A stretch of DNA of 64,000 nucleotides, taken from Alphaproteobacteria bacterium. Its GTDB lineage: Bacteria > Pseudomonadota > Alphaproteobacteria > UBA828. How positions within the stretch are numbered: position 1 is the stretch's first letter; every line of letters begins with the position of its first letter. The position numbers and the translations under genes are program-made. Positions 1 through 18,328 of this stretch are shown piece after piece. Location: the NCBI GenBank assembly GCA_022826345.1, contig JAJDVB010000147.1:1-64000 (forward strand). Reading direction: 5' to 3'. The notes under the pieces are model-generated. The model was not told the origin of the DNA. It saw only the letters and a list, made by a program, of their open reading frames with translations, and did not search any database.

Positions 1-930
1 CTCTGGAGATTTGGACTGTCACCGAGACAAAGCCCCCCGGCGAAATTCTTGCAAGTTCGCCGGGGGGCACCCTCCACAAAACATCGACTAATCCGAGCGG
101 ATCAGACCCCGATCCCCGCTGAAAGCCCGCGTCCTCTCAGCTGGTACCACACCCACTTCACGGGCCTTTTGCGCGGCAGCGGCGCGGAAGAGACCGCGGA
201 CGACCCGGGCATTGTCCGTACCCGCCAGCCGAACTGGCATCCCCGTTTGCCTGCTCCCCCGCCGGAGTTTCCCCATGAAGCTTCCTTCGACCTGACTCGA
301 GAGGAGGCGGCCTTTCTTCAGGGACGGCTGGAGGAGCGCTGTGCAGGCTCGCTGCTCGCGTGGATGGCTCGAGAGGGATCGGATGCGCCGTCGGACGGCT
401 GCTTCTGGGATGACAGCGCCGCGACGCATGCCCATGCCGATTTCACGGTCACGATAGAACTCGCCCGCCGTTTCTCTCTCCACGTTGAGGGCATGCCGCT
501 GCTCTACAATTTGTTACTGGCCGAGCGATTCCTTTCCGAACATGGCGGCGACGGCGAAGCGGTCGAACGGTACAGGCAGGAAATCGACGAATGGGCGGCT
601 CAGGAAGCCGATGAGGAGTCATTCGATCCGGCCAGGCTTTGGACCTTCGCCCGATCCCGCCACGTCCACGTTCCCCGTTTGCAGCGCCCATTCGTCGAGG
701 CCTGGTCGACGCGCCTTCCCGAAGTCGGGCCGACTGCGATCGCGGATGACCGCACGCTGCGTGACTTGATCGAGACTCGGGAACAGCAGCTCAAGGGGTC
801 GCGGGCGAGGCTTCACAACCCCGCTCGTCTCCTCGATTGGAGCGGACGGGTCGGAGTCGGGCGGATGAACTTCCGCTGGCATCGTGTCAGCCGGATGCTG
901 CTCGACCTGCACGGAGGGCTCGCGGCCTGA
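1..930 (+). CDS. DUF6361-like protein, C-terminal part (5' end outside window)
   Basis: The frame is open from base 1 to the TGA at 928-930, so the start lies upstream and about 309 residues are visible. The C-terminus, with NPARLLDWSGRVGVG followed by NFRWHRV, resembles the end of the uncharacterised DUF6361 family as I recall it; this was not searched. No catalytic motif is visible in this part. The stop overlaps the start of the next gene (TGATG), so the three genes at 1-5929 look like one translationally coupled operon with a PLD-type protein and an SF2 helicase. A TTG at 49 could be read as a start, but the upstream frame stays coding-like. By context it may be a subunit of a defence or DNA-processing system. 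The family name is moderately sure and the role is inferred. Confidence 0.6.
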   Translation, partial: LWRFGLSPRQSPPAKFLQVRRGAPSTKHRLIRADQTPIPAESPRPLSWYHTHFTGLLRGSGAEETADDPGIVRTRQPNWHPRLPAPPPEFPHEASFDLTREEAAFLQGRLEERCAGSLLAWMAREGSDAPSDGCFWDDSAATHAHADFTVTIELARRFSLHVEGMPLLYNLLLAERFLSEHGGDGEAVERYRQEIDEWAAQEADEESFDPARLWTFARSRHVHVPRLQRPFVEAWSTRLPEVGPTAIADDRTLRDLIETREQQLKGSRARLHNPARLLDWSGRVGVGRMNFRWHRVSRMLLDLHGGLAA

Positions 931-2741
931 TGCTCTCACCCGACTCCAGAACCGTCGCCTTCGATCTACTTCGCCCGCCGGCCGGCTACGACCTCGATTT
1001 CGCCTTACTGACGACCTACACCCTCGATCTGGACGCGTTGCTCGCGTTGCCTTTGGGTCTTGTCGCGCGGGCGGATAACGGGCTGGAGGAACTGCTCGCA
1101 GAGCCCCTTCTCCTCCTCGAGGCCTTGCGCCGGGCGGGCGAACGAATCCACGTCTTCGTGGATCGGGCCGGTATCGCCATTCCCCGCCAGAGGCGTGAGC
1201 TCTATACGATGCTGGAACCGAGCGTGCATCCCGTGCGCGCGCCAGGCCGCGGGGCGTTCCACCCCAAGGTCTGGGTGCTGCGCTTCATGTCTGAAGACGG
1301 AGCGATTCTGATACGTGTCGCCGTCCTGTCGCGGAACCTCACATTCGACCGTTCCTGGGACATCGCACTGGCGAGCGAAGGGTCACCCAAGCCCAGGCGG
1401 CAGACTCCAGGAAGCCGCCCACTTGCCGAGCTGATCAGGCACCTCCCCGCCCTGTGCGAGGAATCGCTGTCTCCTTCCGTCACCGACAAGGTCCAGGTCC
1501 TGGCCGAGGAGGTCGCGCGAACCGCCTTCGCGGCGCCCGACGGCTTCTTCGACAATCCCATCCAGTTCCATGTCCTTGGCATCAGCGGGCGAGAGGCAGC
1601 CGGTCGGCTGTGGCAGCCGATTTCCGACGGATACGACATGATCGCTGTTGCTCCCTTCGTCGGAAGTACGGCGCTGAATTCGGTCGCAGGGATGGGCGAG
1701 GGCCAGCGCATGCTGGTGAGCTCCCGGGAAGAGCTGGACAAGCTGCCCGACAGCGTGCTGGCGGGCTGGAGTCGCGTCTGCGTGATCGCGGATGCCGCTC
1801 TCGACGAAATGGAGGACGAGAACGGCAGCAGACCTTCCGGGCTGCATGCCAAGTTCATTGCGGTAGAGCACGGCTGGGACGTCACTTGGCTGGTGGGGTC
1901 CGCGAACCTAACCTTTGCCGCATTCTCCGGCAGGAACGTCGAGGTCACGGCCGCCCTGAGCGCCCGCAAAGGTCGCCGCAACGGCAACAGCGGATATGGC
2001 ATCGGACGTTTCCTCGACTCCGGATTCGAGACACTCTGCAAGCCATACCGGCGCGGCGAGCCCGAGATCGAGTCTGCCGAGATGGCAGAGGCGCTGGAGC
2101 GCATCGAGGCTGCCCGGGATGCGCTTCTCGACGCCGACCTCAATGTCGTCTGCTCTCCGTCAGGCCCCAACTGGAATTGGAGCCTCGAAGGTTCTCTCCC
2201 CCACTCACCGCCCGATGTGGACGTCAAGGCGTGGCCGATCTCGTTGGCCGAGGAACAGGCCCTCCCGCTCGAACTCCCCCTGGTCTGGACCCTGCCGATT
2301 GAGCGTCTCACCCGGCTCGTAGCCTTCCGTCTGCATGTTTCCGTGCCGGGGGTCGACGACATCGCCCTCACGCTCAGCCTCCCCGTCGAGGGCATGCCCG
2401 AAGACCGCCTGCACCATGTCCTCAGAAGCCTGATCGGCGATGCAGAGCGCTTCATGGCCTTTCTCCGCGCGCTGCTGGGCGGCCTCGACGGAATGATCGA
2501 CTGGGTGCACGGCCGGGATGCAAACGGCGATGGAGCACCTTGGTCCGACGTGCCGGGTGACGAGACCCTTCTTGAGGGCCTCGTTCGCGCCGCCTCACGC
2601 GATCCCCAGCGCCTGGAGCCGGTTCGCCGGCTGATCGAGGATTTCCGCAGCACCGAGGAAGGCCGCCGCATCGTCCCCGACGCCTTCCTCAACCTCTGGA
2701 GCGCTGTGGAAGAGGCGTTGCGCGAGGACGGCCGCACATGA
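930..2741 (+). CDS. Phospholipase D-like nuclease-family protein
   Basis: This is a 603-residue protein with two PLD-type half-sites. The first is FHPKVWVLRF (H111, K113) followed by SRNLTFD (N136). The second is LHAKFIAVEH (H306, K308) followed by GSANLTFAAF (N326) and NVE (E338). The HxK...N...E layout is that of PLD-fold nucleases, where the usual Asp is replaced, rather than of lipases. I chose the ATG at 930 because it overlaps the upstream stop (TGATG); 31 further in-frame codons upstream lie inside the DUF6361-like gene. The 3' end overlaps the helicase start (ATGA, 2738-2741). A PLD protein next to a helicase recalls DISARM (DrmC with DrmA) or Mokosh, but the third partner differs. 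It is probably the nuclease of the module; neither substrate nor activity is shown by the sequence. Confidence 0.8.
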   Translation: MLSPDSRTVAFDLLRPPAGYDLDFALLTTYTLDLDALLALPLGLVARADNGLEELLAEPLLLLEALRRAGERIHVFVDRAGIAIPRQRRELYTMLEPSVHPVRAPGRGAFHPKVWVLRFMSEDGAILIRVAVLSRNLTFDRSWDIALASEGSPKPRRQTPGSRPLAELIRHLPALCEESLSPSVTDKVQVLAEEVARTAFAAPDGFFDNPIQFHVLGISGREAAGRLWQPISDGYDMIAVAPFVGSTALNSVAGMGEGQRMLVSSREELDKLPDSVLAGWSRVCVIADAALDEMEDENGSRPSGLHAKFIAVEHGWDVTWLVGSANLTFAAFSGRNVEVTAALSARKGRRNGNSGYGIGRFLDSGFETLCKPYRRGEPEIESAEMAEALERIEAARDALLDADLNVVCSPSGPNWNWSLEGSLPHSPPDVDVKAWPISLAEEQALPLELPLVWTLPIERLTRLVAFRLHVSVPGVDDIALTLSLPVEGMPEDRLHHVLRSLIGDAERFMAFLRALLGGLDGMIDWVHGRDANGDGAPWSDVPGDETLLEGLVRAASRDPQRLEPVRRLIEDFRSTEEGRRIVPDAFLNLWSAVEEALREDGRT

Positions 2742-5700
2742 TCCGGCCCCGTATCGAGGAGATCCTGAAACCGCTGAAGCCGTTCCAGCGCCGCACCGTC
2801 GACCATGCCTTCCGGCGGTTGTACTTGGACGCAGACAGCACGTCGCGTTTCCTCGTCGCCGACGAGGTCGGCCTGGGGAAGACTCTGGTCGCGCGCGGCA
2901 TCATCGCTAGGGCGATCGACCATCTCTGGGACGACGTGGATCGCATCGATATCGTCTACATCTGCAGCAACGCCAGCATCGCCCGTGCCAACCTTCCGAA
3001 ACTCCAGATCGGGGGCGCCAGCGAACGCTCCTTCGCGCTGGCGACGCGTCTCACCATGCTGGCCGCCGAGCTCGCGCCCGGCGACGGCGGATCCGGCTTC
3101 ATGGACAACAAGCTGAACTTCGTGAGCTTCACGCCGCGCACGTCGTTCGAAATGGGGCATTCCGGCGGCCAACGCCGGGAACGGGAACTTCTGTTTCATC
3201 TTTTGTCCCCGCATGTCGAGCGGCGAACGCCATTGATGAATCTCTTGCAGGGCTGGGTGACCAAGCGGGAAGGCTGGCGTCGGGGGCTCGACACAGAGTT
3301 GCCGATCGAGCCCCGAATTCGGCGGGACTTCGACGAGGAACTCAAGCAGCGGGCGGACCTGCGGCTCAAGCTGCACGAGCTCCTCGACACCTGGTTCCAG
3401 CGCTATCGGAAGGCTTGGCCGGACGAGGCCCGATGGGGACGCGACGAGTTGATCGGCGAATTGCGGCAAATCCTCGCCGCCGTTTGCATCCAGGCCCTCG
3501 AGCCGGACCTGGTCATCCTCGACGAGTTCCAGCGGTTCAAGCCACTGATCGACACCCGGGAAGAACAGCGCAGCCCGGCCGCCGAGCTTGCGCAATCCCT
3601 GTTCGAGACCGAGGCGCATGACGGCCGGCCCGTCCCGACCCTGCTCCTCTCGGCGACGCCCTACAAGCTCTACACGACCGACGCCGAGATTGAGCAGGAG
3701 GATCACTACGAGGACTTCCTGGCCACCACACGGTTCCTTTTCGGCGGCCGGGAATCCAATGTCGAAAGACTGGCCTGGGATCTTACCCGGTTTGCCAACG
3801 CCCTGAAACGGGCGAGGCCCAGCGACAGGGATTCGCTCCAGGCCGCCGCCGATACAAAGACGGACGTCGAGAATGCGCTTCGAGCCGTGATGGCCAGGAC
3901 CGAGAGGGTCGCCGCCAGCGACGAGCGGGACGCCATGCTGAGCGAGCCCGGAGCAACGATCTCGCTCAAGCCGGTGGACGTGCGCCAGTACCTCGCGTCC
4001 GACGCCCTGTTCAAGGCCGTCGGCGACCGGGATCCGATGCCGTACTGGAAGTCGGCCCCTTACCTCGTTCATTTCATGCGCGGCTACAGGTTCAACGACC
4101 GGCTCGAGGAGGCGCGCGAACGGTCTGCTTCCACGGTTGCCGCGGTGCTGCGATCCCACAGTCAATCCTTCCTGTCTGCCAAGGATTTGCACCGGTGGTC
4201 CGAACTCGATCCCGCGCATCCGAAGATGCGCGAGATGGTAAACGATCAACTCGACTCGGGCGTCTGGCGTCTTCTTTGGGTACCGCCGACTCTGCCCTAT
4301 TGGCCGCTCGAAGGCCCTTTCCACGATAAGGCAGGCGTCACCAAGTCACTGTTGTTTTCGGCGTGGAATGTCGTCCCGGACGTTGTCAGCGCCGTCCTCA
4401 GCTACGAGGCCGAGAGACGCATGACGGGAGGTCGGATCCGTAACTACGAGAATCCGGCAAGGCAGCAGGTTTCCTTGCTGCGTCTCACCCAGTCCGCTGC
4501 GAGAGTCAGGTCTCGCCATCGTCTTCTGCTTCTTCTCCTGCCATGCCTGCCGCTTGCCGACCGGGCGCATCCGCTGAACGCCCCTCCCGGGCACGACCGT
4601 CGCAAGTGGGTCCGCCACGCCGTGGAGCACCTGCTGTCGGCCCCGGACATCCCGGACCCGCAGGACCGTCCCGTCGACGACCGCTGGGAATGGGTAGCGC
4701 CGCTGCTCCTCGACCCGGAATTGCGGACCTTCCTGGAGGCATGGCGGGACGGAAACGTTGCGGCGTTCAACGACGACAAGTCCCTGCCGAGACCGAATCC
4801 CGAGCTGTTCGGCGCCTATGTCGACGACCTCCTCAACCTGCCACTTGAGCAGCTAGGCCGCCGTCCGCCTGGCCTCGCCGATCTTCTGACCGAGGTCGCC
4901 CTTGGCGCACCCGCGATCCTGGCACTGCGCAGCCTCGATGCCGCGCCCGGCCTGACACTCGATACCCGCCGCAGGCTCGCCGTCACGATCGCCGACGCCT
5001 TCTGGAGCCTGTTCAACCAGCCCGCGGTCATTTCTTTGATGCGCCAGCTCTCCGCCGGAAAGAAGGCTTCGCGCAACGATACATATTACTGGCGGCTGGT
5101 CCTGGAGTATTGCTGCCAAGGCAATCTCCAGGCCGTGCTCGACGAACAATGGCACCTGCTGTGGGAGCAAAACGCCTGGTCGGACACCGCAGACGCCACT
5201 GCGGTCGCATGCGAATGCGTCAAGACGCTTGTCAACGCGGTGCACCCCGTCAGATCACGCGTTCATGGCCGCTTTCTTGAAGTCCTGGCCTCGGACGACC
5301 TCGATCCGAAGGAAATCCGGATCCGAACGGTGTTCGCTCTTCGCTTCGGTCATCTGCGCGCGGAGAACGACGAGAACATCAGCGAGGACATGGTTCGCGC
5401 CGCCTTCAACAGCCCGTTCCGCCCCTTGGTGCTAACCAGCACCTCGATCGGCCAGGAGGGGCTGGACTTTCATCCCTGGTGCCATCGCCTGGTCCACTGG
5501 AACCTGCCGGGCAATCCGGTCGACCTTGAACAGCGTGAGGGTCGTGTCCACCGGTACAAGGGCCATGCCGTCCGGCGCAACGTGGCGGCCGCCCACGGCA
5601 AGGCTGCACTTGAGTCGTGGCGACCCGGCAACGATCTCTGGACTTTGATTTTCGATCGCGCCAATCAAGCAGCACGGGAAGCCGGTGACTCTGACCTCGT

Positions 5701-5929
5701 TCCCCACTGGATCGCTTCTGGCAATTGTCGCGTCGAGCGCCATGTCCCACTGCTGCCGTATACGAGGGAAGTCAAGGCCTTTCATCGCTTGAAGCGGCAG
5801 CTCGCAGCTTATCGCGTCGTCTTCGGCCAGCCGCGGCAGGAAGAACTGATCGCTCTCTTTGAACGGGCCGATTTCTCCGTCGATCAACTCCAGCAACTTA
5901 CCATCGATCTATCCCCGCCGGATTTATGA
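2738..5929 (+). CDS. SF2 helicase (DEAD/DEAH, Snf2-like C-terminal motifs)
   Basis: This is a 1063-residue protein. The N-terminus has the Q-like segment PFQRRTV and Walker A ADEVGLGKT (residues 41-49). Walker B is VILDEFQRF (D262, E263) and motif III is LLLSATPYKLYT (SAT at 305-307). Roughly 550 residues of insertion and linker follow. The second RecA-like domain carries VLTSTSIGQEGLDFH (about 897-911) and the arginine-finger motif QREGRVHRYKG (about 931-941). Motifs are intact, so ATPase/translocase activity is expected. Start ATG 2738 overlaps the PLD gene stop by 4 bp. It is the last gene of the module; about 450 bp of degraded mobile DNA follow. Its size and large insertion distinguish it from an ordinary DEAD-box RNA helicase. 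It could be the sensor or motor of a defence system with the two upstream proteins (inference). Confidence 0.85.
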   Translation: MIRPRIEEILKPLKPFQRRTVDHAFRRLYLDADSTSRFLVADEVGLGKTLVARGIIARAIDHLWDDVDRIDIVYICSNASIARANLPKLQIGGASERSFALATRLTMLAAELAPGDGGSGFMDNKLNFVSFTPRTSFEMGHSGGQRRERELLFHLLSPHVERRTPLMNLLQGWVTKREGWRRGLDTELPIEPRIRRDFDEELKQRADLRLKLHELLDTWFQRYRKAWPDEARWGRDELIGELRQILAAVCIQALEPDLVILDEFQRFKPLIDTREEQRSPAAELAQSLFETEAHDGRPVPTLLLSATPYKLYTTDAEIEQEDHYEDFLATTRFLFGGRESNVERLAWDLTRFANALKRARPSDRDSLQAAADTKTDVENALRAVMARTERVAASDERDAMLSEPGATISLKPVDVRQYLASDALFKAVGDRDPMPYWKSAPYLVHFMRGYRFNDRLEEARERSASTVAAVLRSHSQSFLSAKDLHRWSELDPAHPKMREMVNDQLDSGVWRLLWVPPTLPYWPLEGPFHDKAGVTKSLLFSAWNVVPDVVSAVLSYEAERRMTGGRIRNYENPARQQVSLLRLTQSAARVRSRHRLLLLLLPCLPLADRAHPLNAPPGHDRRKWVRHAVEHLLSAPDIPDPQDRPVDDRWEWVAPLLLDPELRTFLEAWRDGNVAAFNDDKSLPRPNPELFGAYVDDLLNLPLEQLGRRPPGLADLLTEVALGAPAILALRSLDAAPGLTLDTRRRLAVTIADAFWSLFNQPAVISLMRQLSAGKKASRNDTYYWRLVLEYCCQGNLQAVLDEQWHLLWEQNAWSDTADATAVACECVKTLVNAVHPVRSRVHGRFLEVLASDDLDPKEIRIRTVFALRFGHLRAENDENISEDMVRAAFNSPFRPLVLTSTSIGQEGLDFHPWCHRLVHWNLPGNPVDLEQREGRVHRYKGHAVRRNVAAAHGKAALESWRPGNDLWTLIFDRANQAAREAGDSDLVPHWIASGNCRVERHVPLLPYTREVKAFHRLKRQLAAYRVVFGQPRQEELIALFERADFSVDQLQQLTIDLSPPDL

Positions 5930-7902: not shown

Positions 7903-8490
7903 ATGAGCAGCGCGCGTCGCACCCCCCTCTCCGAGACCGAAGCGCGGATCGTCGAGGCCGCGATCGGCGTCTTCGTTCGCTATGGCGCGAAGAAGACGAC
8001 CATGGCGGACATTGCCGAGGCGGCCGGGGTGTCGCGCCAGACCGTCTACGCGTCCTTCGGCGACAAGGACGGGATCATCGTGGCGTGCATCCGCCACGTC
8101 TCGGAGGCGTCGCTGGCGGCGATCCGGGCGCGGCTCGGTGGTTGCGGCACCTTGGGCGAAGGGCTCGACGTCTATTTCGAGGAGACGGTGGTGAAGTCCT
8201 TCGAGATGCTGCAGGAGGCAGGCGATCCGGAGGACCTGATCAGCGGTCACAACCGGGCGGGCAGGGCGGCGATCGAGGAGGCCCACGCCCGTCAGGCGGC
8301 GCTGATTGCCGAATTGCTGGAGCCCCACGCCGATGCCATTGCCCGCTCCGGCCAGACGCCCGCCCAGTTGGCACGATTCGTGGTCACCGTTGCGATGGGG
8401 CTGAAGTACGGGGCCGGGGATCGAAGCGCGCTCGATGAACTCCTGCATTCGCTCCAAAGCAGTGTGATCGCGTTGACGGAATCAGAGTAG
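7903..8490 (+). CDS. TetR/AcrR-family transcriptional regulator
   Basis: This is a 195-residue protein. The N-terminal helix-turn-helix reads TMADIAEAAGVSRQTVYASF (about residues 33-52) and is followed by a variable all-helical ligand domain. It is divergent from the SDR/SRPBCC pair and probably represses it through the 7834-7845 palindrome, and perhaps itself. Inducer unknown. The start ATG at 7903 gives the usual short leader before the first helix. Confidence 0.85.
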   Translation: MSSARRTPLSETEARIVEAAIGVFVRYGAKKTTMADIAEAAGVSRQTVYASFGDKDGIIVACIRHVSEASLAAIRARLGGCGTLGEGLDVYFEETVVKSFEMLQEAGDPEDLISGHNRAGRAAIEEAHARQAALIAELLEPHADAIARSGQTPAQLARFVVTVAMGLKYGAGDRSALDELLHSLQSSVIALTESE

Positions 8491-8672
8491 GCCGGCACAG
8501 ACCCGTCCGCCCGGATCGATCGGGCCGCCGGCTACGCTGAACTCCGATGAATCGTGTCGGGTCGCGCGCGTCCCGGAAGTTGCCGGGCCGGCAGCTCCGC
8601 TTTCGCCGCGCGTCCCGTCACCGCTACCATCCTCTCTCAACAGAGCCAAAGGGCCTTCGCCGGATGCTTAGA

Positions 8673-9060
8673 GTGCCAGGCGAACTGGTGAAAGGGTAGC
8701 GGGTGAAAGTCCCGCGAAACGAAAGGAGTAGCCAGCCACGTTTCTCCGCGAGCCGTGCATCGTCGGCCGTGAGGCCGGGGGTGAAGCGTCGGTAGCGGTG
8801 CATGCGGGCAGGGACATTGAGCGCCGAAAACGAGGAGTCCGAAGTGCCGAGACGTTTAAGCACGTCGAAGGCAACATCGCCCCCACCGCGATCTGGCGAG
8901 GTGAGGGGGGAGCTTCGCGGCGTCGAAGACCCCATGCACGCATGTAAGCCCGGCGCGCCGGGTGATGGCGGAGACTATGGAGGACGGCCCGGCGTGAACA
9001 ACTCCGTCGCCGGAAGTCTCCATTTCTGCGTCAGGGATTGCCCAAAACCAGGACGAAGAA
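8673..9060 (+). mobile_element. Group II intron 5' part (domain I region), reverse transcriptase missing
   Basis: From GTGCCAGGCG at 8673 the sequence has the look of a proteobacterial group II intron 5' half. It has GGTAGCGGGTGAAAGTCCCG at about 8694, then AGTAGCCAGCCACGTTTCT, the GTGAAGCGTCGGTAGCGG block and the GACGTTTAAGCACGTCGAAG stem. An intron-encoded reverse transcriptase would be expected from roughly 9050 onward, but none is there; a different gene begins at 9100. I could not see a domain V. The exact 3' boundary is uncertain. I therefore call a truncated, non-mobile intron relic. The rest of 8491-8672 shows nothing recognisable. Confidence 0.6.
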
Positions 9061-9099
9061 GATATACGTACCGGAACCGCATCGGATCGGACGCATCAA

Positions 9100-10392
9100 G
9101 TGAGACGGGCCATACGCAATCTGGAGCAGCTTTCCGACATCGATCTCTTTCAGACTTTGTCCGAGGGCATGCCGCTTATCGTCGACAACGCCACGAGCCT
9201 CGATGAAACCGCCCGGCGCCTATGCCGGAACGGGGAGTTCCGCGCCTCGGAAGTCATGCGCGGCTTTGCGGAGGAGGAGGCGGCAAAGATGCTGATCCTC
9301 ATCGACTATGTTCGATGCCCGAGCAAATCGGGGCGAAGGGCGCAGGTGCTGAGCCGCTTCTACGGGCATGTTGCGAAGCGCATCCATGCCATGGCATCCG
9401 AATATCCGAGGATCGCATCGTTCGGTGAACTCTCGGACTTGGTCGAGCGCGAGTGCCGTCCCTGGTATCTCGACGGACCGAACCACATCGACTGGATTTT
9501 TCCGAACTCGATTTCGGCAAAGCGCGAACGCGATCTCTATGTCGATTATGTACAGGACGTGACTGACGCCGCTGGCGCGTGCCTCTGGATTGCTCCCGCC
9601 CCTTCGGACGATTCCCAGTCGCAATATCCGACATCAGATTGCGTCACGCTCGTCCAATCTCTGTCCCAAGCGGGCGCCGTTTCGGCCGAAGGCCTCGCCG
9701 AGGTCGCCGATGTCTGGAGAGGCTTCGCGCCCGAGCCGTACACCGATCGCGAAGAATTGCACTGTCTGATTCTCGAAACGCTGGACCGTCTCGCACGGCT
9801 TTGCGGCGCCTTCGATGAAGCGGTGGCACGGTTCATAGTACAGCACTGGCCGTTTCCGTTGTGGCCGCTAACGATAAGGGAGCCGCGCCCTGACGAGGGC
9901 GACCTCGACGGCTTGCGCGAAGAACGGGAGCTCACAATCGACTGGATTATGGAGACTGAAGCGAAACGCGACCCGGCTCCCGCGATTTCCCGGTCGAAAG
10001 TCGAGAAATTGCACGACGCCTATGCGGCTTGGCAAAGTGAAAGCGACGCACGCGAGCCACGCCACGCCGAGAGCCAGCACATAACGTTTCGGTTCCGGTC
10101 GTCTGCCGACTTCGCGGAGTGTTTCAGATTGCCGTCCTACGTGGCCCTTCAGGACATGTTCCGCGAATTGACCGGGGATGAGCGTGCGGCGCTTCTCGCA
10201 CTGGGCTGGTTCGCTCGGGAACAGGTGGCTGACTGGCCCCGCATCTACGAACGCGCCGTGAACCTAGAACCGACGACTGACGAGAGCTACCAGATCGGTT
10301 GCGCCTGCTACTGGCTGGCTGGCTTGGAGCGCTGGGAAGAGAAACCCCGGCCCTTCCAAGCAGGACGGATGCGGCGGCGCATGCACCTGTGA
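9100..10392 (+). CDS. AbiV-like HEPN-domain protein with long C-terminal region
   Basis: This is a 430-residue protein starting at GTG 9100 with a weak ribosome site. Residues about 20-72 carry the pattern of AbiV-family HEPN proteins: SEG, then DNATSLDETARRL, then FAEEEAAKMLILIDY (EEExxK at 58-63). FYGHVAKRIHAM (88-99) fits the second H-x-x-K helix. The usual AbiV is about half this length; the C-terminal ~300 residues (rich in Trp, with TIREPRPDE and LLALGWFAREQ) are unknown to me. No clear R-x4-6-H ribonuclease motif is visible. AbiV blocks phage translation in Lactococcus, so a defence role is plausible but inferred. It follows the group II intron relic directly. Confidence 0.6.
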   Translation: MRRAIRNLEQLSDIDLFQTLSEGMPLIVDNATSLDETARRLCRNGEFRASEVMRGFAEEEAAKMLILIDYVRCPSKSGRRAQVLSRFYGHVAKRIHAMASEYPRIASFGELSDLVERECRPWYLDGPNHIDWIFPNSISAKRERDLYVDYVQDVTDAAGACLWIAPAPSDDSQSQYPTSDCVTLVQSLSQAGAVSAEGLAEVADVWRGFAPEPYTDREELHCLILETLDRLARLCGAFDEAVARFIVQHWPFPLWPLTIREPRPDEGDLDGLREERELTIDWIMETEAKRDPAPAISRSKVEKLHDAYAAWQSESDAREPRHAESQHITFRFRSSADFAECFRLPSYVALQDMFRELTGDERAALLALGWFAREQVADWPRIYERAVNLEPTTDESYQIGCACYWLAGLERWEEKPRPFQAGRMRRRMHL

Positions 10393-10946
10393 ACCCACGG
10401 ACCCCCATAGCGACTTATTCTTGTTGCGCGCGTCCTGTTAGCCCCTCGTAATCTTGCAAGATCAGAGGCTTATCGCGCCGATCGGCACCGAACCCGTGCG
10501 TCGATCAACAGCCGCTCTTTCGACTATCTTTGACTACGCACCGTACAATCCCATAATCTCTCCACCCACATTGCATCCCACGATTCGATCAAGAAAATGC
10601 AAGAACGAGCTAGTGTGGTGTCCCGGAGATATATGCATAAAGTCGTTGGAGTTTGGCGAGTATCGATTCAGCGGTTGCGGTCCACATGAAGGCTACCTCC
10701 CTTCTTCGGATGGCGACAGCGTGGATGGCGACTGCGTACACGCCTCACGGCTGGCAGATCAAAGGTACGTATGCTATCGTCGGTTACTATGGACGTAGAA
10801 TTCTCGATGCGCGGGAAGAAGATCGCCCTGACAACGAGTTCCAATCCAAGACAAATTGATTGCGCCATTTCCGTCAGCCCTCGTTTACACCTGATATCAG
10901 AAATGTCGGATAACTTTCGCCACGCCAACAGTGATTGAGAGAAGAC
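10393..10946. other. Non-coding stretch with a third, weak copy of the GATCGGCG repeat
   Basis: No convincing gene is seen. At about 10453-10483 the minus strand reads GATCGGCGCGATAAGCCTCT, similar to the left part of the inverted repeats at 6019 and 12119. From about 10500 onward the base composition becomes noticeably AT-richer than the surrounding ~65-70% GC chromosome. Confidence 0.4.
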
Positions 10947-11558
10947 ATGCCCTATCCTATGGACAAGATTATCGACAACACGCTTACTGGCATTGCTAAG
11001 GCACAAAAAGATTATGAGAGCTGGACAGGCGGATATTGGCTTTGGCAAGCTCCCGAATACCTTATAACTACCTACATCGCAAGACAGATTGCAACCTATC
11101 GCGATCACAATTACTATGTAACTCTTGAACACAACACCCGAGCGGCCATCGATGCTGCGGGCGGCATGCGTCAAGGAAGACCACGACGCGACTTACGCCT
11201 GCGAGGAAAATTTGATATTTTGTTGTGGTGGGCCAATGATACCCCCAGAGCCATCATTGAAGTTAAGAGGCACATCAGTGCCTTCGAGCACGTTGAGAAG
11301 GATGTAGCCAGAATATGCAGTACCTTAAAGCAGGAAAACCACATTCGCGCCGGCTTAGTTGCCTATTACACATCACATGCTAGTGAGCCCGACGAGGTGG
11401 CGCAGTTCATTTCCGAAAGGCTGGAGATCATTGAAACGGGAACGCGAGAGTACGTAGAAAACAAACGCCGCATGAAATTCCGTCATTGTCCGGGCAAAGT
11501 TCGGATTGTGGAAGATTCAGCCTGGGTACCGGGCGTATTGAGAATATCCCGCTCCTGA
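10947..11558 (+). CDS. PD-(D/E)XK-type nuclease-like protein
   Basis: This is a 203-residue protein. GKFDILLWW (D90) followed by RAIIEVKRH (E105, K107) is the D-x(n)-E-x-K core of the PD-(D/E)XK nuclease fold, and E37 in PEYLITTYIA may be the fourth acidic residue. I chose the ATG at 10947, preceded by GAGAGAAG, over a TTG 12 bp upstream. The gene is AT-richer than the host and stands alone between the AbiV-like gene and transposase debris. It could be a lone restriction-type nuclease, a defence effector or a repair nuclease. No methylase or specificity subunit is nearby. Confidence 0.65.
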   Translation: MPYPMDKIIDNTLTGIAKAQKDYESWTGGYWLWQAPEYLITTYIARQIATYRDHNYYVTLEHNTRAAIDAAGGMRQGRPRRDLRLRGKFDILLWWANDTPRAIIEVKRHISAFEHVEKDVARICSTLKQENHIRAGLVAYYTSHASEPDEVAQFISERLEIIETGTREYVENKRRMKFRHCPGKVRIVEDSAWVPGVLRISRS

Positions 11559-11788
11559 CACGCCAGCGTTCTCTGCTCAATAGTGCAGAACCGCTTTTGT
11601 CCGCGGCTGAGGGGCGTAATGACGGAGGTCGGGCAGACTCGGGCTGATCCAGGTCCTCCCTTCGCTTGCCTGGACGGCTACATGGGGTCCCCGAGGATCG
11701 GTGGGATGTCGCCGGTTTCGGGTTCCGTCGAGTGCAGCTGTCCGGCCTCGCCGCTGGACGAGGTTACCCAGCGAACTCTGCTATCCGG

Positions 11789-12052
11789 TTACGCCCGCGG
11801 GATCATGCGGCGGGCGCGCTCAGTGATCGCGTGGAGAGCCTCCTTGGCGCGGGCGGCATAGTGGCGGTTGGCCTCGGGCAGGTTTCGCAACTGCCCGTTG
11901 CAGCGCACGATGGCGATGGTGGCGCTGGTCAGGCGGGAGAGATTACGCGGCATGTGAAGTACATGGAACCGGCAGCGGTCTTCGTCGTGGTTAGAGTTGC
12001 GCACGTAGTGGAGTTGCTTCGCGATGTTCCGGTGGTTGCGCGAGAGAGCCAA
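11789..12052 (-). pseudogene. Transposase C-terminal relic (ISAs1/IS4-like DDE)
   Basis: The 87-codon minus-strand frame contains SRNHRNIAKQLHYVRNSNHD then EDRCRF and MPRNLSRLTSATIAIVRCNG. This matches the C-terminal layout of ISAs1-type transposases (H-W-x-I-E-N-x-LH-x-VRD...EDR...P-x-N-x-x-x-L). The catalytic Glu expected in the first block is not in its usual context, and the rest of the gene is absent. The 5' side abuts the inverted repeat at 12076-12119, so it looks truncated by another element. The flanking 11559-11788 holds nothing recognisable. Confidence 0.5.
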
Positions 12053-12075
12053 GAGTGTTGTTTACCACCCGGTTC

Positions 12076-12119
12076 TGACCCTAGTGGGTCATGCTAAATT
12101 AACGAGTTGCACGCCGATC
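12076..12119 (-). repeat. Inverted-repeat end, right copy
   Basis: On the minus strand it reads GATCGGCGTGCAACTCGTTA through TAGCATGACCCACTAGGGTC, the partner of 6019-6063. A second GCACGCCGATC copy follows at 12121-12131, giving the multiple-repeat look of some IS ends. The two copies face each other across about 6.1 kb holding regulator, enzyme, intron and defence-like genes. Confidence 0.55.
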
Positions 12120-12230
12120 AGCACGCCGATCGACGTTTGAGGTTGCCCGCAGCCTTGCGCCTGTAGGACTTCCAGTGTGGTTCGCAGCAGCAGTGCAGAC
12201 GCCACTGTTCAAGACGACGCGATTACCGTT

Positions 12231-12737
12231 CTAATGGTGATGCCACCTTCTAAATTCTATCGGAGATCCATTATCATTACATCTGGTCAGGTCTTGGTCA
12301 ATTAGCTCCCAAAGCACGTCATCCATCTCACTTCTGGGTCTTTTGTAGGCGTTACGTATGGAAGATCGGAGATCTGCAATAGCATTGTTTACAGCTAATG
12401 CTCCGTCATTCTTTGCGTTTACTAACAAAGGGTCATTATTCAAGTTCTGTCGCGCTTCTTCTAATTCTCTACTGAAAAGACTATTGGTCTCTCGCCATGA
12501 TTTAGCATTCGTCGTTTCTTGCTCATAGCGCTTTCTGTATATCTCCTGTTCTCTCTTTTTAAAGACTTCATGGGCTTGCTGATAAGCGACATTTACAAGT
12601 CTAATGTGACGATCTAAAATAGCATTATACTTGGCAGTTGCCTCCATATACTCAACACAAGTCTGCTGCGTTTGAGCCGATGCGGTGGACATTGAAATAT
12701 TGAGAGCTAAAACGGTCGTGAAGAGGAATTTCCACAC
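12231..12737 (-). CDS. Small secreted coiled-coil protein of unknown function
   Basis: This is a 168-residue protein. Residues 1-22 are a Sec signal peptide (MWKFLFTTVLALNISMSTAS then AQ) with a probable cleavage site after ASA. The mature part is highly charged and helical (EVFKKREQEIYRKRYEQE, ELEEARQNLN), suggesting a coiled coil, with two Cys (CVEYMEA near the N-terminus, LTRCND near the C-terminus) that could form a disulfide. Base composition is clearly AT-rich against the chromosome. I do not recognise a family. Location is probably periplasmic. The gene sits upstream of the integrase pair's 3' end, inside the island. Confidence 0.6.
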   Translation of the reverse strand: MWKFLFTTVLALNISMSTASAQTQQTCVEYMEATAKYNAILDRHIRLVNVAYQQAHEVFKKREQEIYRKRYEQETTNAKSWRETNSLFSRELEEARQNLNNDPLLVNAKNDGALAVNNAIADLRSSIRNAYKRPRSEMDDVLWELIDQDLTRCNDNGSPIEFRRWHHH

Positions 12738-13121: not shown

Positions 13122-14294
13122 TCACGACGATGCTGCTGCAGGCGACTCGCCGGTCTCCATTGCGACCTCGATGGTCTTTCCGATGCGCTCGGCGGCGGCC
13201 TGCAGGTCGCGGTCGCCGACATGGGCGTATCGCAGGGTCATCCTGGGGTCAGCGTGCCCGAGCATCCGCGCGACGGTGGACAGGGAAACGCCCCGGGCGA
13301 CGGCCTGGCTGGCAACGGTATGCCTGAGATCGTGCAGACGGACGTCGTCGAGACCGGCTTCCTTCCGCACCTGGCGCCAGAGGCACAGTGTGTCTGAAAG
13401 CGGTTTGTCAGGATGCCTCGGAGACGGGAACACGTAAGGACCTGCGACACGCGGCTGGCGGGCGAGGATGGCCTGCGCGGCCTGGCTCAACCATACCCTT
13501 CGCGGCCCGGTCTTGGTGTGGGCGAGGTTGAGCAGGTCGCCGTCGACCTCCGACCATTGAAGCTTCAGAATCTCGCCCACCCGGCAGCCGGTGAGCAGGA
13601 GGAGCCGGATGACGTCGGCCTGTTGCCGGCGGGAAGGCCGCTCCCCGGCCAGCCGGTCGAGGACGCGGTGAAGCCTTTCGATCTCTTCGACGGAGAGGAA
13701 CCGGGTGAGTTTCGGGCGGGGGTTCTTGGCGATGCCCTTGACGGGAGCGGTTCCGGCATGGCCGGCGGCGAGGGCGGCGTTCATGATCTGGCTGAGAATC
13801 TCAAGCGCCTTGTTGGCTCCTCCCGGAGCGGTGCGGCTGTAGGTGTCGAACCAGCGTTCGACGTCGATCCGCCGGATGGCGTCCAGCGGGAGGGGGCCGA
13901 AGGCGGGGATCAACTGCCGCCTAAGTACAAGGTCGGCGGATCGGCAGGACGACGGGGCACAGCGGCGGCGGTACGCCGGCCACCACTCGTTCTGGACGAA
14001 GTCGCGGAACAAGGGAGCGCCGGAACCTCCTTCCGCCTTGCGCGGGGCGGTTCCCAGGCGGAGCGCCAGGGCTCCCTTCCGGGCATCCTCAACAGTCATG
14101 AGCGCAGCCGGGCCGACGGTCGTCCTGACCGGCTCTCCCTGGACGCGGCCGTGCCAGACGAAGCTGCGATGGCCGGACGGGCGCACCCTAACGCCGAGGC
14201 CGGGCACCTCGCTGTCCCAGACCGCGTATTCCGTCGTGTGCGGCTTCAACCTGCTGACGCCCGCGTCGGTCAGCCGGACCCTCCGCCCCTTCAC
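13122..14294 (-). CDS. Tyrosine recombinase (integrase), second of a coupled pair
   Basis: This is a 390-residue integrase. The N-terminus (VRLTDAGVSRLKPHTTEYAV, GLGVRVRPSG) is the arm-type DUF4102-like domain, followed by a core-binding SAM-like domain. The catalytic set is complete: R in LLTGCRVGEIL, K in HTKTG, HDLRHT (HxxR), LGHADP and the nucleophile Y in LRYAHVGD. I chose the GTG at 14294 because it overlaps the stop of the upstream integrase by 4 bp (GTGA); the frame is open further upstream but there it is antisense to that gene's coding frame. Its 3' end is duplicated as a relic at 6112-6216. It probably drives integration or excision of this island. Confidence 0.9.
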   Translation of the reverse strand: MKGRRVRLTDAGVSRLKPHTTEYAVWDSEVPGLGVRVRPSGHRSFVWHGRVQGEPVRTTVGPAALMTVEDARKGALALRLGTAPRKAEGGSGAPLFRDFVQNEWWPAYRRRCAPSSCRSADLVLRRQLIPAFGPLPLDAIRRIDVERWFDTYSRTAPGGANKALEILSQIMNAALAAGHAGTAPVKGIAKNPRPKLTRFLSVEEIERLHRVLDRLAGERPSRRQQADVIRLLLLTGCRVGEILKLQWSEVDGDLLNLAHTKTGPRRVWLSQAAQAILARQPRVAGPYVFPSPRHPDKPLSDTLCLWRQVRKEAGLDDVRLHDLRHTVASQAVARGVSLSTVARMLGHADPRMTLRYAHVGDRDLQAAAERIGKTIEVAMETGESPAAASS

Positions 14295-15418
14295 GCCTGC
14301 CTCCCCGACAGGACAGGAGACAGGGTCTCGACCGCCTCGCGGACCGTGGCGTCGGACAGGTGGGCGTATTTCAAGGTGGTCGACGCGCTCTCGTGACCGA
14401 GCAGGCGGCCGACGGTGCGCACGCTCTCGCCGCAGAGCAGCGCCATGCTGGCGTAGGAGTGCCTGGTGTCGTGCAGGCGGACATCCCGAAGCCCGGCTTC
14501 CTCCCTCACGCAGCGCCAGAAGTAATCCAGCCACAGCCACGGGGTGCGCAGACCGGCAACCGGGAAGACCCACCCGGACGACCTGGGCAGTCGGTCGAGG
14601 ACATCGCGCGCCGCCGCACATAGCCAGATCGTGCGCGGGCCGACTTTGCTGTCCGGCAGATAGAGCCGCCCCTCCCGGTAGGAGCGCCACTGGAGGGTCA
14701 GGATCTCCGACTTGCGGCACCCGGTGAGCAGCAGCAGGCGCAGGGCGGCCACGTGCAGGGGGCGGGCGGCCTCGTGCCGGCCCAGCACTGCGGCGAGGCG
14801 GCGGTATTCCTCGGGGGTGAGGAAGCGCTCGGACCGCCCCTGCCGGTAGCGGTGGATGCCGGCGCAGGGGTTGCTGTCCTCGGGGCGGTATCCCCAGACC
14901 TCGGCCTGCTGCATGACGACCGAGAGGATCGGCGCAGAGCGGTTCGCGGCGGCGGGCGTCGCGTGCAGAGAGCGGAACCAGGCCCGCACATCCTCCCGAG
15001 TTATCTCTCCGATGGGCCTGCCCGCGAAGAAGGGCAGTATCTGCCGGCGGAGATAGGCCCGGTTCACGTCCAGGGTGCGGGGCTTCCAGCGACGCCCGTA
15101 GCGCTCGAAGACCTCCTCGGCGACGGTCTCGAAGAGAGTGCCGCCGGGGTCGGCCGCCGCGGGCTCCCGGCCGTCGCGCAACGCGGCGAGCATCGCCCTG
15201 GCCCTGGCCCGCGCCTCGGGCTCGGCGAGCGCCCCCGCGTCGCCTATTATCTTCCAGACCCGTTTGCCCCTGTGCTGGCTGTGGATGAAGTAGCGTCTGG
15301 CGCCGGAGGGCATAACCCGGACGCCGTATCCCTTAAGTTCGGCGTCTCGGATATCGCGCACCTTGCGGCGGGGCCGAAGGGCGTCGACCCGGCGCTGGGT
15401 GAGACGGATGGGTGGCAT
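14291..15418 (-). CDS. Tyrosine recombinase (integrase), first of a coupled pair
   Basis: This is a 375-residue integrase paralogous to the one just downstream. It has an N-terminal arm domain (IRLTQRRVDALRPRRKVRDI, GYGVRVMPSG), a core-binding domain, and catalytic residues R (LLTGCRKSEIL), K (DSKVGPR), HDTRHS, LGHESAS and Y (LKYAHLSD). I chose the ATG at 15418, preceded by GGAGA at a good distance; 22 extra in-frame codons upstream are less likely. It lies at the island/chromosome boundary, about 120 bp beyond the 3' end of the urease operon. The 4-bp overlap with the second integrase implies coupled synthesis and perhaps heteromeric action, as in multi-recombinase elements (RIT), but only two recombinases are present. 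Confidence 0.9.
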   Translation of the reverse strand: MPPIRLTQRRVDALRPRRKVRDIRDAELKGYGVRVMPSGARRYFIHSQHRGKRVWKIIGDAGALAEPEARARARAMLAALRDGREPAAADPGGTLFETVAEEVFERYGRRWKPRTLDVNRAYLRRQILPFFAGRPIGEITREDVRAWFRSLHATPAAANRSAPILSVVMQQAEVWGYRPEDSNPCAGIHRYRQGRSERFLTPEEYRRLAAVLGRHEAARPLHVAALRLLLLTGCRKSEILTLQWRSYREGRLYLPDSKVGPRTIWLCAAARDVLDRLPRSSGWVFPVAGLRTPWLWLDYFWRCVREEAGLRDVRLHDTRHSYASMALLCGESVRTVGRLLGHESASTTLKYAHLSDATVREAVETLSPVLSGRQA

Positions 15419-15616
15419 GATTGCGCGTCTCCGATCTGTTGCAGCGGGGTGCGGAATCGGCTTGAATTCCGTACCCGGTGGCAATAGAAACGGATGACTA
15501 TCGCAATCGAATCAGTTGTTTAGCACCGGAGGTGCGTGACGATGTGTAAGAAAACCGAGGTCAACGGGATCGCTCGCAGGTCCGACTGCATGGGAATTAA
15601 CTTCAGAAACAGGACA

Positions 15617-16495
15617 CTAGCACTTGAGGATGGGGCGGGCGGGCTTGCCGGCGATGGCGGGGCGGAGCGCGGTCCAGGCGTTGAAGAGCGCCTCGTGGGC
15701 CTGCCAGGTCTCGTGGCTCAGGATGCGGACGATCACCAGGTTGCCGATGCGGGTGACGCCGGCCTCGGTGCCGTCGACGCCTTCGATGGCCTCGTGCACG
15801 TCGTCCTCCACGGCCGCTGGCAGGTCCGGTGCGTAGGCGAACGCCGTCGCCATGTGCAGCCGCTCCTGCCAGAGCCGCTGCAGCGCGGCGATGGTCTCCG
15901 GCGCGGTCGCGACCAGGCGGTCGAGGGCGACCAACCGGCCGCCGAGGGCGATGCGGAACTCGGAAACCAGGTGGTGGAAGCGGAAGACCTCACCGTCGCC
16001 AAAGTGGACGCGGCCGGCCGAGACCATGTCGGTGGCGAAGAGCCGCGACGAGGGCTCCAGCGCGATCCGGTTGATCCGGTGCACCCGGCTGCGGGCGAAG
16101 GGGATCGCCTCGTCCGGGCAGAACTCAAGCAGCGCGTCTGCACCCACGTGGAGGTCCACGATCTCACGCGAGACGGCGCCCCCCGGGCACTTGTAGAACT
16201 TGCTCGACGCGGTGGTGGTGAAGAGGGAACGGGTGCCCGGCTCCAGCACGCCGTGGAAGTGCGAGACGTCGCCTTCGACGAACCCGCCGCCGCTGTTGAC
16301 CAGCAGCATGAACGGCTGGTCGTCGTGATCCTGGTAGTGGTAGCCCTGCCACTGGAAGGGGATGCGCCAGCAGAGCGGGTCGATCTCCGTCCGCCCGAGC
16401 CGGCTCGACGCGCGGACGTTCATCAGCGCGTACTTGCCGACGATCCATTCGGGATCAGGCTGAATGGGCGCGCTGCTCGGCTCCGTCATGCCCAC
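15617..16495 (-). CDS. ureD: Urease accessory protein UreD (UreH)
   Basis: This is a 292-residue protein of the UreD/UreH family, the scaffold that binds apo-urease and recruits UreF and UreG for nickel insertion. Recognisable features are [13 protein letters not shown] near residue 65, [13 protein letters not shown] and the [14 protein letters not shown] stretch. It is the last gene of the urease operon, as in Helicobacter, rather than first as in Klebsiella. Its start lies inside ureG (about 40 bp overlap); a second Met two codons in is an alternative start. Confidence 0.93.
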
Positions 16496-17099
16496 CCATC
16501 AGGAGAACGTCGCGCTCGATCCAGGCGATCACCTCGGCAAGGCCCTCGCCGGCGCGCAGGTTGGTGAAGAGGAAGGGCCGCGCGCCCCGCATCTTCTTCG
16601 AATCGCGCTCCATGACGCCAAGGTCGGCGCCCACCATCGGCGCGAGGTCGATCTTGTTGATGACCAGCAGCGGCGACTTGGTGATGCCGGGCCCGCCCTT
16701 GCGCGGGATCTTGTCGCCCTCCGCCACGTCGATGACGTAGATGTAGCTGTCCACCAGCTCGGGGCTGAAGGTCGCCGCGAGATTGTCGCCGCCGCTCTCG
16801 ACGAAGACGATGTCGAGGTCGGGATGCAGCGCCGCCATCTCTTCGATGGCGTGGGCGTTCATCGAGACGTCCTCGCGGATCGCGGTGTGCGGGCAGCCGC
16901 CGGTCTCGACCCCGGCCACGCGCTCGGGCGCGATGGCGCCGGACTTGACGACGAACTCGGCGTCTTCCTTGGTGTAGATGTCGTTGGTGATGGCGGCCAG
17001 CGAATGGCGGCCGCCCATGCTGCGGCAGAGCGATACCAGCAGCGCCGTCTTGCCCGAGCCCACCGGCCCGCCGATGCCGATCCTGACCGGCTTGCGCAT
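16455..17099 (-). CDS. ureG: Urease accessory GTPase UreG
   Basis: This is a 214-residue SIMIBI-class GTPase that powers nickel delivery to urease. The P-loop is GGPVGSGKT near the N-terminus, the nickel-binding CPH motif is in [30 protein letters not shown] follows, and the guanine-specificity NKID is in [10 protein letters not shown]. Length is normal. It lies between ureF and ureD on the minus strand. Confidence 0.97.
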
Positions 17100-17132
17100 T
17101 CGTGAAGCCTCCCCGATTTCCTCGCATCTACC

Positions 17133-17831
17133 TTATGACATGCAAAGCCGCGTGTGCAGGCGCTCGTGCCGCATGCTGGCGACGTCGAGGCCGGCGGTTG
17201 CGCTGCCGAGCGCGTCGATTTCCATGGTGCAGGCCCGGTCGGCACCTTGGGTCAGCAGCGGCCAGGCCTCCCGCACGATGCGCTGGCTCTCGATCTGGCC
17301 GAGGGGGATCAGTCGCGCGCCGACGCTGACGAGGTTGGAGAGCGCGGCGTGAAGGAAGGCGAGCACCGCGTCCTCTACACCGATCCCCTGCGCCTCCGCC
17401 GCCGCACCGAAGATCACCGCCTGATGCCCTTCGCAGCGGCCGTCGCGCGCCGCCTCGGCGAAGGGAGCGAGGGAATCGGCCGAGAAGATGTCGCGGTAGG
17501 CGCCGAGCAGGGCACGGCCTGTCTTGAACGAGGCCTCGCGGACCTCACGGCTGAGCTTGAGCGCGCCGACGATGCGGTCGAGGTCCACGAGCCCGTCGAG
17601 GTCGCCGGCAGCGGCGCGCCGGTGGGCATGGACGACCGCGGCGCCGTCCGTCGGCACGGCGGCGTAGCGGAGCCAGTCGCAGCAGGCGCTCTCGAAGCTC
17701 GCGGCATCGTCCAGCGCACCCGAGTCGATCCAGGTCTCGAAGCCGTAGGAATGGTTGAACGCGCCGGTCGGGAACGAGGCGTTCGCCACCTGCAGCAGGT
17801 AGAGGAGCTGGGCCGGCACTTCAGTGGTCAT
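17133..17831 (-). CDS. ureF: Urease accessory protein UreF
   Basis: This is a 232-residue all-helical UreF. Family marks are the N-terminal LLQVANASFPTGAFNHSYGF (SFP-x-G-x-(F/Y)-x-HS-x-G) and the C-terminal IPLGQIESQRIV. UreF bridges UreD and UreG and gates GTP-dependent nickel transfer. Its start overlaps the end of ureE by 11 bp. Confidence 0.95.
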   Translation of the reverse strand: MTTEVPAQLLYLLQVANASFPTGAFNHSYGFETWIDSGALDDAASFESACCDWLRYAAVPTDGAAVVHAHRRAAAGDLDGLVDLDRIVGALKLSREVREASFKTGRALLGAYRDIFSADSLAPFAEAARDGRCEGHQAVIFGAAAEAQGIGVEDAVLAFLHAALSNLVSVGARLIPLGQIESQRIVREAWPLLTQGADRACTMEIDALGSATAGLDVASMRHERLHTRLCMS

Positions 17832-18303
17832 GGTGATGGTCGTGGTGATCGTGATGGTGGTGGGCGCCGTGGGCGCCGTAGCGGCGGCCGACGAAGGGCA
17901 TGGTGCGTTCCTCGAAGGCGATGCCGAGGCGCGAAAGCAGGTCGGCCACCATGGGATCGGCGGGCGTCAGCATGCCGTCATCGGTGAAGCGCACGGGCCG
18001 GTGCAGGTTGCCGAGCTGGTAACCCGCGACGCCCCAGGTGTAGGCATCGTCCGGGCTGACCACGTAGAGCGCCTCCGGCGCAGCTCGCGCTACCACTGCC
18101 GTGGTGCCGTCCAGCGCCAGCACGTCGCCGTCGTTGATCTCGGTGCCCCGCGGCAGCGAGATGCGCACGTCGCGCCCGCCTTCCGAGCGGCCAACGAGAT
18201 GGGCGCTCGCGCGCTCCTCGGAGTTGAGCAGGACCGGGTCCTCGCTCTCGAATTGGCCGCGCAAGGACTCGACCGTGCCGAGGACCGCGGTGACCACCGC
18301 CAT
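17821..18303 (-). CDS. ureE: Urease accessory metallochaperone UreE
   Basis: This is a 160-residue UreE with N-terminal peptide-binding and central metal domains and a C-terminal His-rich tail (GAHHHHDHHDHHHDH) for nickel storage. In the central motif the sequence reads YQLGNLH, where most UreE have Y-H-x-G-N-R-H, so one conserved His is Gln while the interface His is kept. It lies between ureC and ureF. Confidence 0.93.
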   Translation of the reverse strand: MAVVTAVLGTVESLRGQFESEDPVLLNSEERASAHLVGRSEGGRDVRISLPRGTEINDGDVLALDGTTAVVARAAPEALYVVSPDDAYTWGVAGYQLGNLHRPVRFTDDGMLTPADPMVADLLSRLGIAFEERTMPFVGRRYGAHGAHHHHDHHDHHHDH

Positions 18304-18328
18304 GCGCGTCGCGGCCTAGGCCGATCCT

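Follow-up and report, generated by a model that had tools for sequence, protein, structure and literature searches.

The 64,000-nucleotide stretch analysed here (below, the window: positions 1 to 64,000 of contig JAJDVB010000147.1, from an alphaproteobacterium) opens with three overlapping genes which, judging by their protein sequences, are almost certainly the zacA, zacB and zacC components of the Azaca anti-phage system. Azaca was reportedly first described by Millman et al. in 2022. The operon contains the following features:

1–129, no strand: block directly 5' of the remaining zacA, not recognisable as zacA in any frame
130–930, plus strand: zacA (DUF6361), equivalent to residues 136–400 of the 400-residue ZacA of locus L001; PADLOC ZacA, PF19888
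930–2741, plus strand: zacB, complete, 603 residues, a two-half-site protein of the phospholipase D (PLD) superfamily; PADLOC ZacB, AlphaFold 2 model and fold matches
1260–1361, plus strand: ZacB PLD half-site 1 (H111, K113, N136, D144), invariant in 48/48 rows of alignment A2
1845–1943, plus strand: ZacB PLD half-site 2 (H306, K308, G323-S324, N326, N336, E338), invariant in 48/48 rows of A2
2738–5929, plus strand: zacC, complete, 1063 residues, a superfamily 2 (SF2) helicase-like ATPase; PADLOC ZacC, PF00271
2870–2884, plus strand: ZacC Walker A, G45-L-G-K-T49, invariant in 45/45 rows of alignment A3
3521–3532, plus strand: ZacC motif II, DEFQ, residues 262–265, invariant in 45/45 rows of A3
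3650–3658, plus strand: ZacC motif III, SAT, residues 305–307, invariant in 45/45 rows of A3
5531–5554, plus strand: ZacC motif VI, QREGRVHR, residues 932–939, with Q932, G935, R936 and R939 invariant in 45/45 rows of A3

The start of zacB lies within the stop of the first gene (TGATG at 928–932), and the start of zacC lies within the end of zacB (ATGA at 2738–2741), the stop codon of zacC being at 5927–5929; by both overlaps, the A-B-C order of Azaca in one operon is present in the window. A preliminary description of this DNA, made from the letters alone, had placed both stop-to-start overlaps at exactly these coordinates.

The identification follows from the dedicated PADLOC models, which match all three proteins. 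The first gene product matches ZacA (PDLC03828) with an E-value of 1.5e-59, the match spanning only positions 146–394 of the 396 in the profile, and the Pfam family DUF6361 (PF19888, 4.3e-23, 82.4 bits against a cut-off of 25), to which it had been likened from the start. The second matches ZacB (PDLC03829) over residues 1–599 (5.5e-162); in Pfam it matches PLDc_2 alone and weakly (0.0045, under the cut-off), leaving the Tdp1 sequence family unmatched. The third matches ZacC (PDLC03830) over residues 6–1060 (E = 0, 1054.7 bits) and, in Pfam, Helicase_C (PF00271, 5.2e-06); its PADLOC runners-up, PDC-M27C (7.5e-18) and DrmD (3.7e-14), align over short segments near the C-terminal helicase motifs, and the best stretch of PDC-M27C, a PADLOC candidate, covers just residues 885–944. 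Passages on Azaca attribute a PLD-like domain to it, with Millman et al. 2022 as the reference (PMC10952713), and name ZacC among the SF1/SF2 helicases of defence systems (PMC12278908). The trio is a known system, rightly seen as a defence operon in the preliminary description and not new: it already bears a name, which is the very finding that the description had set against its own proposal of an undescribed module. That proposal, which would draw on the trio fitting neither DISARM nor Mokosh and on the Pfam picture alone (DUF6361, a weak PLD match and Helicase_C), is highly improbable given the three PADLOC matches and the naming of Azaca in those passages. The identification is mostly a re-discovery, and it takes a false 'new defence system' off the list.

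Comparison with Azaca as found elsewhere indicates agreement in all three proteins, in gene order, in the overlaps and in the lengths of ZacB and ZacC, whereas the zacA of the window differs in missing residues 1–135. DISARM (DrmA/B/C, DrmD) resembles the trio in having a PLD protein and an SF2 helicase, but the NCBIfam models of DrmC (23.7 bits against a cut-off of 133) and DrmD (51.3 against 610) fell far short, the PADLOC match to DrmA (1.5e-10) was confined to residues 871–941, and DUF1998, as the mark of DrmB, was unmatched in all three proteins at E up to 1. For Mokosh, the sole match was MkoB on ZacB (E 0.02), and no Mko family was among the 24 listed for ZacC (E up to 1); the NCBIfam models of Dpd stayed far under their cut-offs for the trio. 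Membership of DISARM or Mokosh is rejected, as their component models were not matched, and the preliminary view of a coupled DUF6361, PLD and SF2 helicase module outside both systems, with neither DrmB nor (by Pfam) a methylase in the trio, holds good. SauUSI combines a PLD domain, an SF2 ATPase and an SRA recognition domain in a single chain, and ZacB matches its structure 7clg by profile (0.0012) and by fold (2.9e-06); the likeness would lie in the pairing of an SF2 ATPase with a nuclease of PLD chemistry, as predicted for ZacB and ZacC. In SauUSI, according to the relevant passages of PMC7913695, two chains contribute their HxK motifs to the catalytic site, whereas a single ZacB chain carries the two half-sites, and Azaca divides motor and nuclease between two proteins. 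Separate genes for a PLD nuclease and an ATPase that work together are described in passages on CglI (PMC5737866) and NgoAVII (PMC4267653). Those systems consist of an R-protein with PLD and B3 domains, a separate DEAD-family ATPase and a methylase; the Azaca trio differs in lacking, by Pfam, B3 and methylase, with a DUF6361 protein in their stead. No SRA or B3 recognition domain was matched in the trio by Pfam at E up to 1, although a diverged domain is possible.

A ZacC search of genome contigs yielded 50 loci, which, by their record titles, come from alpha-, gamma- and deltaproteobacteria, Gemmatimonadota, Acidobacteria, Vicinamibacteria, Myxococcota, Planctomycetota and Caldilineaceae. The genes stand as A-B-C, in the same order and on the same strand, in 47 of them (46 by BLAST, and L047 by profile); in L032 and L037 the contig start falls inside ZacC, and in L033 the 485 bases upstream of ZacC hold no ZacB, with about 106 profile positions missing within ZacC. 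Three of the 47 (L014, L016 and L038) have a zacB–zacC gap of about 0.5–0.9 kb. The gap of L014 (5468–6144) holds two small open reading frames (ORFs), toxin-antitoxin-like by eye, and that of L038 (8090–8923), a diverged Azaca locus, an additional 277-residue ORF. No fourth recurrent gene emerged from neighbour clustering, the largest groups occurring in 3/50 loci.

The co-occurrence of DUF6361 with PLD and helicase genes, which the preliminary description had put forward as a check, was seen here: among 398 genomes of one phylum DUF6361 was found in five (and in none of 14 control genomes), and ZacB and ZacC adjoin it in 5/5; since L001 comes from one of these five, the independent ones number four. 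In this sample, DUF6361 was seen only heading the trio. One of the five loci, L064 (6134–12572), holds a very diverged trio, possibly a subtype, with ZacA, ZacB and ZacC scores of 143, 140 and 447 bits, where the other four loci reach at least 383, 463 and 989. Relatives of ZacC were also found on 46 of 72,556 plasmid records (E ≤1e-30; 37 with at least 80% coverage; 19 Cronobacter) and on one unverified phage-labelled record out of 50,697, and the trio was complete in both of the two records examined from these sets; the trio behaves as a single unit across phyla and on plasmids. The phage-labelled record, MT835621 (24 kb, human faeces), carries its complete trio at L072:1879–8198.

The protein alignments were built from these loci. 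The ZacB alignment (A2, 48 rows) contains the window and 47/50 loci, L032, L033 and L037 having no ZacB; the ZacC alignment (A3, 45 rows) contains the window and 44/50 loci, L016, L020, L028, L032, L033 and L037 being left out because in these loci ZacC runs into a contig end, is divided between frames or has an internal deletion. The ZacA alignment (A1) has 44 rows, from 44/50 loci; not included are the partial copy of the window, L019, which is at a contig edge, L024, which has an internal stop, L047, which came to light later by profile, and the three loci that lack zacA. Both PLD half-sites of ZacB are without exception in A2, and the GxGKT, DEFQ, SAT and QxxGRxxR motifs of ZacC are without exception in A3, so that the early recognition of two HxK...N half-sites and of Walker A, Walker B, SAT and arginine-finger motifs was sound; the PLD and SF2 ATPase motifs are intact in the window. 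The AlphaFold 2 model of ZacB (pLDDT, the predicted local distance difference test score, 85.2; pTM, the predicted template modelling score, 0.86) has Tdp1 as its nearest fold, with 10–15% identity to Tdp1, PLD3 and PLD4 and no match to their sequence families; it differs from them in an added strand-rich part (approximately residues 403–483) and a helical tail (493–599). ZacA is predicted to be an all-helical protein with no confident fold relative among solved structures.

The first third of zacA is absent from the window. In relatives, full ZacA has about 400 residues; similarity in the window begins at about nucleotide 130, corresponding to residue 136 of the L001 protein, and continues to the end at 76% identity, so that nucleotides 1–129 occupy the place of residues 93–135 (43 residues). 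Over these residues the closest relatives match L001 at 40/43 (L006) and 37/43 (L020) positions, and all 43 aligned relatives are continuous across the breakpoint, with at most one residue inserted and at most three missing. The six frames of nucleotides 1–129, compared with ZacA residues 1–135 in any register, reached at most 8/43 identities, no better than shuffles (for the first frame, mean 7.9 and maximum 14 identities, n = 500). The first frame is open throughout, as chance could leave 43 codons. An uninterrupted full-length zacA was not found within the window, and neither was a relocated 5' end (best tblastn match E 1.8); the same N-terminal query detects this part in 40/44 loci of one file. 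Of the 23 positions invariant in ZacA across A1, 13 lie in the N-terminal third, which is more conserved than the remainder in 43/43 relatives compared with L001 (93 vs. 77% identity in L006, 89 vs. 70% in L020). Since ZacA is most conserved in the very piece that is absent, this Azaca copy, judged from its sequence, is probably damaged and not functional as found, unless the 5' part of zacA precedes the window or nucleotides 1–129 are misassembled. An operon may look healthy although its first gene is interrupted.

The 129-nucleotide block may represent one end of an insertion, the junction left by a deletion or a misassembly. It contains a perfect 13-bp inverted repeat (arms 32–44 and 56–68, loop of 11), the sole perfect inverted repeat of at least 13 bp with a loop of 3–15 in the window, and the folding of nucleotides 1–140 beats 199/200 shuffles (z −3.4). 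A plasmid search for a mobile-element origin of the block gave no match, a 24-base exact pattern from it was absent from viral contigs, and no convincing match was found in sets of 199 and 24 genomes related to that of L001. In the 199 genomes (ten matching at E ≤0.01), nucleotides 1–400 returned the ZacA match of genome G001 and ten others, none longer than 58 bases; the best short match, in the 24 genomes, was 27 bases in G001 (E 7.8e-4), on the reverse strand and within an unrelated ORF. A group II intron as the interruption of zacA was rejected, nucleotides 1–1000 having no Rfam match except a sub-threshold riboswitch at 809–858 (E 0.21). An assembly artefact at the contig end, with the operon intact in the organism, is a serious alternative, held at somewhat below even odds: the interruption falls within nucleotides 1–129, beside a perfect hairpin, where assemblies presumably tend to break. 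On the other hand, zac lesions occur elsewhere, zacA of L024 having an internal stop and ZacC of L020 and L028 being split over two frames, although these are likewise drafts.

The mechanism of Azaca is still listed as unknown in the passage on it in a 2026 review (PMC12926258), and the passages on Azaca from the texts of five papers give none. We suggest that ZacC would work as an ATPase or translocase bound to DNA, with ZacB as its nuclease, cutting DNA through covalent His-phosphate chemistry as other PLD nucleases do, whereas ZacA may be a helical partner licensing or targeting the ZacB–ZacC complex, as the unit yielded neither a methylase nor any further recognition domain. The chances of this mechanism are put at about even. 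The absence, by Pfam, of a methylase or known recognition domain also means that self DNA must be spared in another way, and ZacA might instead restrain the ZacB–ZacC complex, with a logic like that of Hachiman, described in PMC12278908 as such a nuclease-helicase pair; we consider this rather unlikely, as cell death and the closeness of ZacA to HamA and of ZacC to HamB would be drawn by analogy, Azaca being known here from its genes.

Several points weigh against the proposed licensed nuclease and the damaged copy: Tdp1, the closest fold of ZacB, is an end-processing enzyme and not an endonuclease; the fold search with ZacA gave no match pointing to a function; the nuclease and motor roles are predicted from family and motif; and the zacA breakpoint is known from one copy, at the window edge. 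The first of these would suit a ZacB that processes DNA ends or protein–DNA adducts in the manner of Tdp1 or PLD3 and that ZacC brings to the ends of phage DNA or to covalently capped ends; this appears improbable. A fuller version, equally improbable, would make Azaca a three-part machine different from any defence system yet solved, in which a helicase-driven, Tdp1-like, two-half-site PLD enzyme acts on the ends of phage DNA or on protein-capped ends and is gated by the all-helical ZacA. The overall reading preferred here, namely an Azaca operon about 7 kb from an integrase gene, present as a damaged copy and acting as the licensed ZacB–ZacC nuclease proposed above, is given a probability of roughly 60%. 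The lack of confident fold relatives of ZacA and the Tdp1-like fold of ZacB provide two structural leads, by which the question of how Azaca works is sharpened, not answered.

The surroundings of Azaca were scanned in 119 of 168 near-flanking ORFs (100–900 residues) from 47/50 loci; the 49 dropped ORFs were mostly shorter than 170 residues, and two of them were ZacA itself or its piece. At E ≤1e-10, 225 PADLOC models match flank ORFs, and among the matches listed (the best 25 of the 225) are Gabija, BREX BrxA/BrxB, a type I restriction enzyme, AbiE, IetA and several reverse-transcriptase defence families; Pfam matches in the same flanks include transporters, alkaline phosphatase and urease proteins. 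The flanks are consistent with defence islands; because the scan had no background control, they are not called enriched, and the enrichment suggested in the preliminary description goes no further than this consistency. The island it had drawn in the window, with integrases and an AbiV-like gene, is confirmed in one integrase (13122–14720, minus strand, phage integrase family PF00589, 1.2e-22; about 7 kb from the operon) and not in AbiV, since the match at 9100–10392 (PF18728, 21.8 bits) is under the 27.1-bit cut-off. Ten window ORFs between 9100 and 24284 gave no strong PADLOC match, the best being a weak one to Tin (1.5e-4) at 10935–11558 on the plus strand. A stretch of the purL-like gene of the window reaches at most 77% identity in the order to which the L001 genome belongs, the one order searched, in which 286 of 297 genomes gave a match.

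At 8706–8932 on the plus strand there is a strong match to group II intron domains D1–D4 (RF02005, 160.8 bits vs. 49). A separate group II domain V/VI was not found in 8400–12500 at E up to 1, nor was a reverse transcriptase among the nearby ORFs scanned, the next ORF being the weak AbiV-like one; the segment may be an intron remnant or unusual ORF content. The integrase gene stands directly beside urease genes (UreD, UreF, UreC; 13122–20035, minus strand), and UreD also occurs in two of the 119 proteins scanned beside other Azaca loci.

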